A DNA stretch of 44,173 nucleotides from a virus, in the IMG/VR virus record IMGVR_UViG_3300049435_000052, positions 1-44,173 of that record; one strand, written 5' to 3'. Both the position numbers and the translations under genes were made by a program. The first letter of the stretch is position 1; every line of letters begins with the position of its first letter. This document shows, one piece after another, positions 36,654 through 39,256 of this stretch. Below the pieces are notes generated by a model, which was not told where the DNA came from, ran no database searches, and saw only the letters and a list, made by a program, of their open reading frames with translations.

Positions 36654-37532
36654 TCAGATGCCGGTGATGATGGTCGCGGCCTTCGGCTGGTCGATGAAGA
36701 TCGCCGTGGTCCGCAGGAGGTCGGAGCGCCAGGTCTCCGCCTCCGGCTTCCACTTGTACAGCGGTGTCGCCTGCAGCGGCCGCTCGTCCGCGTACCCGCC
36801 GACCCTGCCCTTCTGCACGAGCACTGCCGTACCGGCAGGGACCGCGTAGGTCTGCATGACGTCGAGCCCGACGAACGGGAAGTTGATCCGGCCGGTCAGC
36901 AGCGGGTTCTGGTCCGCGACGTTGCCGGTGTAGACCTGGGTCATCTCGGCCGAGGTCATGATGTCGTTCGCGTTCGTCGGGTTCAGCACGAGCGTGTCCG
37001 GCATGAAGCCGGCCTTCTGGTCGAGGATCAGCTTCCGCGCGGCAAGCACGTCCTTGCGCAGGTGCGTGGTCGACGCCCAGACCGTGGTCGCAGCGAACGT
37101 ATTGGCCGACGCGGCGAGCAGCGCGGTCCAGAACGTCGCGTCGAAGTCCGACACGATGGTGTTCCGGGCCTGGCTGATCTGCGTGTTGACCAGGTCGACG
37201 GCGTTGCGGTCCTGCATCTCCTGGCTGATGGTCACACCGAGGGCCCGCTTGCGCGCGCGGACCGACTTCGGTGTGCCGAGCTGCCCGACGGCGACCGGGA
37301 TCTCGCCGAACTCCTCGACGTACTCCGAAGAGCTGCCGGCGAACAGCGGGGTCGACTCGTAGTAGACGACGGTGCCGCCTTCGGGCTTCCCGGCCGGGCG
37401 GAGGATCTTCTCCGCGACGAACAGCTGGTCGAGCCCGGAGAGCATGAGGGCTGGGATGAAGAGCGGGTCTCGGAGCATCTGCGGGACGGTAAGCGCGGGG
37501 CTGTCCGTCGTCGCGACGATGTTTTGCGCCAT
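36654..37532 (-). CDS. Major capsid protein (HK97 fold)
   Basis: 292 aa, ATG start, AAAGGA ribosome site. The sequence TVVYYESTPLFAGSSSEYVEEFGEIPVAVGQLGTPKSVRARKRALGVTISQEMQDRNAVDLV, later FMPDTLVLNPTNANDIM and INFPFVGLDVMQTYAVPAGTAVLVQKG, shows the E-loop, spine-helix and P-domain pattern of HK97-type capsid proteins. It is followed by connector genes. No N-terminal delta domain is present, so scaffolding probably comes from the separate protein at 38084-39256. The leader before it can fold to hide the start. Confidence 0.9.
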   Translation of the reverse strand: MAQNIVATTDSPALTVPQMLRDPLFIPALMLSGLDQLFVAEKILRPAGKPEGGTVVYYESTPLFAGSSSEYVEEFGEIPVAVGQLGTPKSVRARKRALGVTISQEMQDRNAVDLVNTQISQARNTIVSDFDATFWTALLAASANTFAATTVWASTTHLRKDVLAARKLILDQKAGFMPDTLVLNPTNANDIMTSAEMTQVYTGNVADQNPLLTGRINFPFVGLDVMQTYAVPAGTAVLVQKGRVGGYADERPLQATPLYKWKPEAETWRSDLLRTTAIFIDQPKAATIITGI

Positions 37533-37579
37533 GTGTCGGCTGTCCTTTCATGCGAAAGGCCCCGACACATGCGGGGCCT
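37530..37579 (-). promoter_or_regulatory. Folded leader covering the major capsid start
   Basis: Minus-strand arms, 5' to 3': AGGCCCC (37579-37573) pairs with GGGGCCT (37563-37557), a terminator-like hairpin. CATGTGTCGG (37571-37562) pairs perfectly with CCGACACATG (37539-37530), whose last three bases are the capsid start codon. Inside that, CCTTTC (37558-37553) pairs with GAAAGG (37548-37543), which holds the ribosome site. The first hairpin uses bases needed by the second, so the two are exclusive or form a pseudoknot. Confidence 0.65.
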
Positions 37580-37621: not shown

Positions 37622-38053
37622 TCAGGCGAGAGTGATCCGGACGCGTCCCTTGTTGCCGGACGTGACTCCGGCGGATTCGGCGCAGTAGCCGATGATCGCG
37701 GCGGCCGAGTCGGTGCCGGACACCCAGGGGGTGACCTGACCGGCCGCGGCGGCCTTGAGCCTGTCGCCGTAGTTGGCGTTCGCCGCGTAGGTGACGCCGG
37801 CGACGGTGCCCTGTACGGCGACGGTTGCGGATGGGGGGAGCGGGTAGACGAGCGCGGCCGCCTGGGCTGCGTTCGTCGCGTCGATCAGCGCGATGCCGAT
37901 CACCTTGAGGCTGGTCGCGCCGGCGACGCCGCAAGGGCGCTGGGTGGCGGCGCCGGAGACGGCGCGCGCCTCGACGACCTGCCCCCCGGCAACCGCCTCG
38001 ACGACGTCGCAGGTGATGGGGCTGTCGTCGAAGACCTGGATGGTTCCGGCCAT
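37622..38053 (-). CDS. Capsid decoration/stabilisation protein (DUF2190-like)
   Basis: 143 aa, ATG start with AAAGGA upstream. It reads IQVFDDSPITCDVVEAVAGGQVVEAR, GVAGATSLKVIGIALIDA, GTVAGVTYAANANYGDRLKAAAAGQVTPW, typical of the beta-rich DUF2190/decoration family that binds capsid three-fold sites. Placed between protease/scaffold and major capsid genes, the expected spot. Confidence 0.75.
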   Translation of the reverse strand: MAGTIQVFDDSPITCDVVEAVAGGQVVEARAVSGAATQRPCGVAGATSLKVIGIALIDATNAAQAAALVYPLPPSATVAVQGTVAGVTYAANANYGDRLKAAAAGQVTPWVSGTDSAAAIIGYCAESAGVTSGNKGRVRITLA

Positions 38054-38083: not shown

Positions 38084-39256
38084 TCAGAGCTTGTAGTGCT
38101 CGGCGTAGGCCTCGACGGCCTTGGCCCGGGTCTCGGTGTCGTCGTCGCCTTCGATGCTGCCGATGACGGAGAGGTCGACGGTGCCCTTGCACGCGTCGAC
38201 GACTTTCCGGAGCGCGTCGATCGGGTCGGGCCCGGTCGAGTTCGACAGGTCGATGACGCCGGCGGGCAACGACAGGACGGGCTCGGCGAGGTCGAGGACG
38301 ACCTTCGGGACGCCGGCCTGGAGGAGCCGCTGCTTCTCCTCGCGCCAGTGCGACGCGGCGAGGTCGGTACGGACCTCGTCGAGGGCCTTGCGGTCCTCTT
38401 CACGGGCGGCGTTCGCGAGGTCGATCGCGGCCTGCGCCTCGGTTGAGAGGGCGGCGCCCGCACCGGCGAGCTCGGTCGCCGCCGGCTCCTCCTCGAGCAG
38501 CTTCGCGACCGCCGCGGCGAGCTGCTCGTCGGTGAGCGGCTCCGCTGCGTTGAGCTTCGGCTCTGTGACCGTGGTCGTCGCCGCGGTGGTGGTGCTCGTC
38601 GCGGCTGCCGGGTCGGTCACGGTCGCCGTGAGTTCGGCCAGGGACGCGAGCAGGGCAGCCCGCTCGTCGTCACCCAGGCCGGCGATCTGCTCCCGCAGGG
38701 CTTCGGCGGTGTCGGGCATCAGGGGCTCCTTCTGCGTGGTGAACGTCGCCCCGGTCAGGTCGACCGTGGGCGTGGTGTCGTTGGACAGGTCGACCGCCTG
38801 CCACGGGCGCATGCCGGTGACCTTCGGGTCGAGGGTTCCGAGGACGTGGTTGATCGCAGCGGGGAACTTGCGGCCGTCGGCCTTCTCCAGGCCTTCGACG
38901 ATCCGGACGGACACGCCGAGGTCGGGGTGTTCGTCCACGAGGGCGGCCGCGTCGTCGGAGAGCTCGAGGATCCCGTCGAGTCCTTCCGGAGTGACCTGCA
39001 GGCCGCGGAGGGTGCCGCGCATCCGTTCCGGGTCGAGGGTGTGCCGGTTGTCGTCGCCGGCGAGGAGGAACTTCACCGAGTCATAGGCCCGGTCGCGGAA
39101 CGACGCGGCGAGCGAGGCGAGGTAGTCGGTGGTGAAGTCGAGCCGGCGGCCTTCGTAGGTGAGGGATCCGAGGGGGAGCAGCTGCTTGCGGAACAGCCGG
39201 GGGCCGACGCGGGTGGCGAGGTCGTGGGTGAGCGGGGTGAGCAGCGCTCCGGTCAC
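38084..39256 (-). CDS. Capsid maturation protease with scaffold domain
   Basis: 390 aa, GTG start. N-terminal ~170 residues (RKQLLPLGSLTYEGRRLDFTTDYLASLAASF, GTLRGLQVTPEGLDGILELSDDAAALVDEHPDLGVSVRIVEG) resemble Mu gpI-like phage proteases. The rest is a Glu/Ala/Thr-rich helical scaffold (EALREQIAGLGDDERAALLASLAELTATV, EAQAAIDLANAAREEDRKALDEVR) ending in a helical tail (AKAVEAYAEHYKL). Self-removal of the scaffold is presumed. Identified by position and pattern. Confidence 0.75.
   Translation of the reverse strand: MTGALLTPLTHDLATRVGPRLFRKQLLPLGSLTYEGRRLDFTTDYLASLAASFRDRAYDSVKFLLAGDDNRHTLDPERMRGTLRGLQVTPEGLDGILELSDDAAALVDEHPDLGVSVRIVEGLEKADGRKFPAAINHVLGTLDPKVTGMRPWQAVDLSNDTTPTVDLTGATFTTQKEPLMPDTAEALREQIAGLGDDERAALLASLAELTATVTDPAAATSTTTAATTTVTEPKLNAAEPLTDEQLAAAVAKLLEEEPAATELAGAGAALSTEAQAAIDLANAAREEDRKALDEVRTDLAASHWREEKQRLLQAGVPKVVLDLAEPVLSLPAGVIDLSNSTGPDPIDALRKVVDACKGTVDLSVIGSIEGDDDTETRAKAVEAYAEHYKL

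Follow-up and report, generated by a model that had tools for sequence, protein, structure and literature searches.

The major capsid gene of an uncultured actinobacterial-type phage is preceded by a short leader element that is, on comparative sequence grounds, under strong selection and holds this position in each of the five known members of a small clade. We tentatively propose, with a rough probability of 0.42, that this element acts in cis as an RNA leader of the capsid mRNA with two predicted states, one leaving the ribosome site open and the other closing it. The phage comes from record IMGVR_UViG_3300049435_000052, analysed over its 44,173 bases (71% GC; hereafter the window).

The structural genes flanking the leader lie on the minus strand, and their features are collected in the table below. 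The protein encoded behind the leader matches PHROG 1650 (E 7.7e-72) and Pfam Phage_capsid_4 (E 9.8e-13), and it has related proteins in 264 phage records, the matches listed being annotated as major capsid; judged by these matches the gene is the major capsid gene, as the first-pass annotation had it. The upstream gene, separated from it by 89 nt, matches PHROG 673 (E 1.2e-9), which is labelled head scaffolding. Despite this label its product is probably a capsid cement (decoration) protein, because a relative in another record (L332) matches the Pfam family Phage_cement (E 2.8e-7). A gene of 390 aa (38084-39256, minus strand), without a family match, may encode a protease-scaffold. Two consecutive hairpins, H0 and H1, occupy the gap between cement-like and capsid genes, and a sigma-70 consensus scan found no promoter in the leader region. 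Stop-codon hairpins equivalent to H0 are present in records L002 and L014, where the sequence changes preserve pairing, and L003 has a shifted local hairpin.

Table. Features of the capsid leader and its flanking genes (window coordinates).
Feature	Position	Strand	Details and basis
Major capsid protein gene, 292 aa	36654..37532	-	start ATG 37532-37530
Upstream gene, 143 aa, probable capsid cement (decoration) protein	37622..38053	-	PHROG 673; Pfam Phage_cement via a relative
H0, hairpin spanning the cement-like gene's stop codon	37595..37633	-	arms 37633-37620 and 37608-37595
H1, terminator-shaped hairpin AGGCCCCG-CATGTGT-CGGGGCCT, then short T-tract TTTC (37557-37554)	37557..37579	-	7-bp pairing AGGCCCC (37579-37573) with GGGGCCT (37563-37557); sequence, stem invariance, prefix folding
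Closing stem, 5' arm CATGTGTCGG	37562..37571	-	covers the loop of H1 and some of its 3' arm
Closing stem, 3' arm CCGACACATG	37530..37539	-	spacer between SD and ATG, plus the start codon
Anti-SD strand CCTTTC	37554..37559	-	CCT common to the H1 3' arm; invariant in relatives
Shine-Dalgarno (SD) site GAAAGGA of the capsid gene	37543..37549	-	sequence; pairing part GAAAGG 37549-37544

In the mRNA sense, the intergenic gap ends in UAGGCCCCGCAUGUGUCGGGGCCUUUCGCAUGAAAGGACAGCCGACACAUG. The three pairings that had been pointed out at 37530-37579 are all present, on the minus strand, that is, the capsid coding strand: H1, whose 7-bp pairing extends to 8 bp (AGGCCCCG/CGGGGCCT), a perfect 10-bp closing stem with the capsid start codon inside its 3' arm, and a 6-bp stem in which the tail of H1 pairs with the Shine-Dalgarno sequence. 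The motif GAAAGGA occurs only twice in the window at 4-12 nt ahead of an ATG. As a terminator, H1 offers a GC-rich 8-bp stem of about -16 kcal/mol, followed by UUUC as its only U-rich tract, and a terminator scan requiring at least 5 T in 8 omits it. The upstream AUG in the inner loop (CATGAAAGGA) was considered as the start of a longer capsid protein and rejected, since relatives disagree on its reading frame with respect to the capsid start, L002 alone having it in frame.

Within the window, the 10-bp repeat alone is unremarkable at 71% GC, since 18 overlapping 10-mer inverted-repeat pairs with a spacing of 3-40 nt were found against 9.5 ± 3.5 expected. The minus-strand fold is more stable than that of shuffled sequences, with a z of -3.35 over 61 nt and -2.70 over 101 nt. 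In a set of 58 rough gene-start predictions, no start has a longer perfect helix than that of the capsid gene (10 bp, with 8 bp in the runners-up), and only two have a lower equilibrium accessibility, extensive pairing at gene starts being the rule in this genome. Conservation, as read from the alignments, is a stronger argument than these window statistics and decides the matter against chance.

Four other contigs, whose capsids are 70-72% identical to that of the window, carry the element almost unchanged. Over these five sequences 34-36 nt are near-invariant (34 columns of H1, tail and SD being invariant) while four-fold degenerate sites are only 55-67% identical between the window and the four contigs, which argues that the element is under selection; the neighbouring gap and the ribosome site of the upstream gene align poorly. 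The H1 stem never varies in the five members and therefore gives no covariation evidence. Bases CA..GT of the H1 loop and CCG.C.C of the spacer are conserved as well. In the closing stem about 98% of the pairs are kept; a compensatory change replaces one U-A by C-G, and another U-A has become U-G. Covariation among related phages, suggested earlier as a check, was thus seen in one compensatory pair and one G-U, but is not significant (95 of 500 shuffles were as good, with only two clearly separate lineages).

More distant capsid relatives (approximately 30-42% identical, from Gordonia, Rhodococcus and Streptomyces phages and metagenomic sisters) mostly have short gaps and lack the element, which confines it to one small clade. 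One of the records, L334, has a different GC-rich hairpin-like stretch before its capsid gene, in a gap of 104 nt. Searching for further members by capsid alignment, H1 loop pattern and upstream gene yielded only element-free sister groups.

Folding was predicted for the RNA alone, pseudoknot-free and without ribosomes. In the four distinct versions of the leader the predicted minimum-energy fold hides the SD and is 3-7 kcal/mol better than the SD-open one; H1 appears dissolved in all four, and its loop and 3' arm join with the tail, SD and spacer in a long hairpin, which in the window version also takes in the AUG. These mutually exclusive predicted folds agree with the first-pass annotation, in which H1 and the 10-bp stem were said to share bases and so to compete or form a pseudoknot. 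The site is closed more effectively by native spacers than by most shuffled spacers (of which a fraction of 0.03-0.10 did as well) or stretches drawn at random from the window (0.008-0.08), and of the elements tried with it the window spacer suits its own alone. When growing transcripts are folded, H1 is predicted to form first (-16 to -18 kcal/mol) and to remain the most stable structure up to roughly AUG-4 to AUG+1, when the long hairpin takes over in the four distinct sequences, across a predicted barrier of 10.6-14 kcal/mol. The best SD-open alternative at the capsid start costs 7.5 kcal/mol, ranking 50 of 58 starts from the costliest, a low cost, as would be expected if H1 makes the open state cheap.

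The resulting scheme would be that H1 folds first during transcription and occupies the strand able to pair with the SD, so that the ribosome site would be open and ribosomes could load. Should the leader remain free of ribosomes, the spacer and AUG could invade the H1 loop to make the more stable long hairpin, hiding SD and start codon, and capsid synthesis would depend on new mRNA under active translation. Two competing predicted folds in every known member, together with strong selection, fit such a switch, and closing-stem changes that mostly keep pairing count in its favour. Counting against it are the non-significant covariation with its two lineages, the extensive pairing that is usual at gene starts at 71% GC, and the more distant relatives lacking the element. 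A closed equilibrium fold is also odd for a capsid, which is needed in large amounts, and refolding across the predicted barrier may take longer than an infection lasts. The idea of a capsid switch, already raised in the first reading of the sequence, is therefore sustained in part, by the competing folds predicted across the whole clade and by the selection, and weakened by the finding that similar leaders are common and mostly lack the predicted closed state.

These similar leaders deserve some attention. Unrelated phages share the general build (a GC hairpin, then CCTTTC, GAAAGGA and a start codon), usually once per genome, ahead of major tail, decoration-like, Ku-like (L008), minor-tail and unrelated capsid-like (L004) genes, and it also precedes a hydrolase gene in two Microbacterium genomes (L019 and L026), the labels Ku-like, capsid-like (L004) and hydrolase coming from our own reading of the sequences. 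The build is thus not restricted to phages. In the two Microbacterium genomes (5927-5943 in L019, 4836-4852 in L026, both minus strand) the same hairpin and CCTTTCGCATGAAAGGA stand directly before the gene, which encodes a HAD-type hydrolase. Phages L133, L147, L148 and L169 have a UUCG-loop hairpin, GGCCCTTCGGGGCC, and GAAAGGA before a decoration-like gene, and the predicted equilibrium fold of L133 likewise dissolves the UUCG-loop hairpin. When genome contigs were scanned for the tail motif, most matches were unrelated and due to chance, and a small number were actinobacterial genes sharing the GC-hairpin build. Contigs L021, L023, L031, L034 and L044, from the Oscillospiraceae bin Nt197P3bin64, have in common a stretch ending in CCTTTCGCATGAAAGGAATGGTCATACATGA, at most about 100 nt from a contig end, past which they diverge into different genes, so that it may be either a repeated leader or an assembly boundary.

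A scan that asked for a GGCCCC hairpin, TTT and a start codon in this order, and accepted any SD, found 30 leaders with many SD types, of which only 4 had GAAAGG. This indicates that terminator-shaped hairpins at ribosome sites are common in phages and that they do not generally serve to pair their tail with the SD. CATG after the T-tract was tried as a general terminator motif and discarded (6 of 164). H1 is predicted to be dissolved at equilibrium in all 4 family members, and among 25 comparable leaders from outside the family this holds for 1; the Fisher p of 0.0002 counts related sequences as independent and overstates the case, the family members being related.

The frequency of such leaders bears on what we regard as the main alternative, a passive element: a weak hairpin of intrinsic-terminator type, or an insulator, just before the ribosome site, which would trim or stabilise upstream transcripts or stop the GC-rich leader from trapping the site, the pairings of tail with GAAAGG and of loop with spacer being incidental. 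Since terminator-shaped hairpins with many SDs are common before phage genes, the same build recurring ahead of other phage genes and host genes, and since capsid is needed in bulk and the closed-form covariation is thin, this reading is nearly as likely as the switch. It fits less well with the short T-tract and with a region devoid of promoter-like sites, in which a much-needed capsid gene would be reached only by read-through. The conserved loop and spacer bases would be unneeded by a terminator, and H1 is predicted to be unstable at equilibrium in the clade, compared with its being formed in 24 of the 25 other leaders. The succession of H0 and H1 filling the gap, and the similar hairpins before other abundant virion proteins (major tail, decoration-like), would also suit an RNA processing or stability site, where an RNase cut near H0/H1 would release a separate capsid mRNA protected by its 5' hairpin and raise capsid over the upstream genes; we consider this unlikely, given that it leaves the conserved anti-SD strand and spacer unexplained.

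A switch in which capsid, another phage protein or heat shifts the fold equilibrium would be permitted by the architecture and by an element under selection. We judge it very improbable: an Rfam covariance-model scan of the window gave no match above the gathering score, and predicted SD opening hardly changes with temperature (in silico unpaired probability for the window SD of 0.15 at 10 C and 0.21 at 50 C). The suggestion of a temperature trigger is therefore unsupported, the SD being predicted to stay closed throughout this range. Direct translational coupling, another of the initial proposals, is also unlikely: with the upstream stop codon about 42 nt ahead of H1, a ribosome terminating there would, in our estimate, be too distant to melt the hairpin directly.

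If the two-state leader is real, the folding order of an mRNA would time the most abundant virion protein in the late operon of a DNA phage with no regulator protein. A broader and rather doubtful extension is a protein-free timer, in which a terminator-shaped hairpin keeps the site open early and the start region closes later, so that capsid would come mainly from fresh transcripts, the build having been gained separately before other virion genes. If the element is instead passive, the conserved build of hairpin and ribosome site would be an unannotated element recurring before several virion genes, which could help to annotate gene starts and to design expression in high-GC hosts.

A search of the open-access literature for a described capsid-leader hairpin in actinophages gave no match, and several known systems offer partial parallels. 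H1 resembles the intrinsic (Rho-independent) terminators of phage operons in that, along the transcript, Ts come after a GC-rich hairpin, but differs in having only TTTC, a tail complementary to the SD of the next gene, and a downstream gene with no promoter in sight. The actinophage motifs in print that come nearest are of the Start-Associated type: Cluster K mycobacteriophages contain Start-Associated Sequences (SAS) and extended SAS, about half of the copies having an inverted repeat just upstream (PMC3203893), and SAS-like motifs are found in Microbacterium cluster EF phages (PMC7302621). The leader likewise has a conserved motif at an actinobacteriophage ribosome site with an upstream inverted repeat, as in the extended form. 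However, SAS are 13-bp motifs with about 10-19 copies per genome, and the leader element is single-copy, of other sequence and placed before the capsid gene, for which reason we do not file it with SAS. A repeated motif of this type was rejected, with one copy in the window and one tail-pattern match in each related record.

A likeness in mechanism would be offered by the Helicobacter pylori aapA3 mRNA, with metastable hairpins that hide the SD (PMC6733600), where folding order during transcription controls SD access as we predict here. The early hairpins of aapA3 close the SD and the early H1 would leave it open, so that the two would be mirror images. In the MS2 maturation-gene leader, as summarised in PMC6733600, a transient open fold precedes a stable cloverleaf. 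MS2 is an RNA phage whose mechanism was studied experimentally, and our scheme, derived from prediction, concerns a DNA-phage capsid gene within a run of structural genes; the likeness would be a resemblance in working rather than membership. What the two would have in common, should the prediction hold, is a transient fold of the nascent RNA that permits translation before the stable closed fold is reached.
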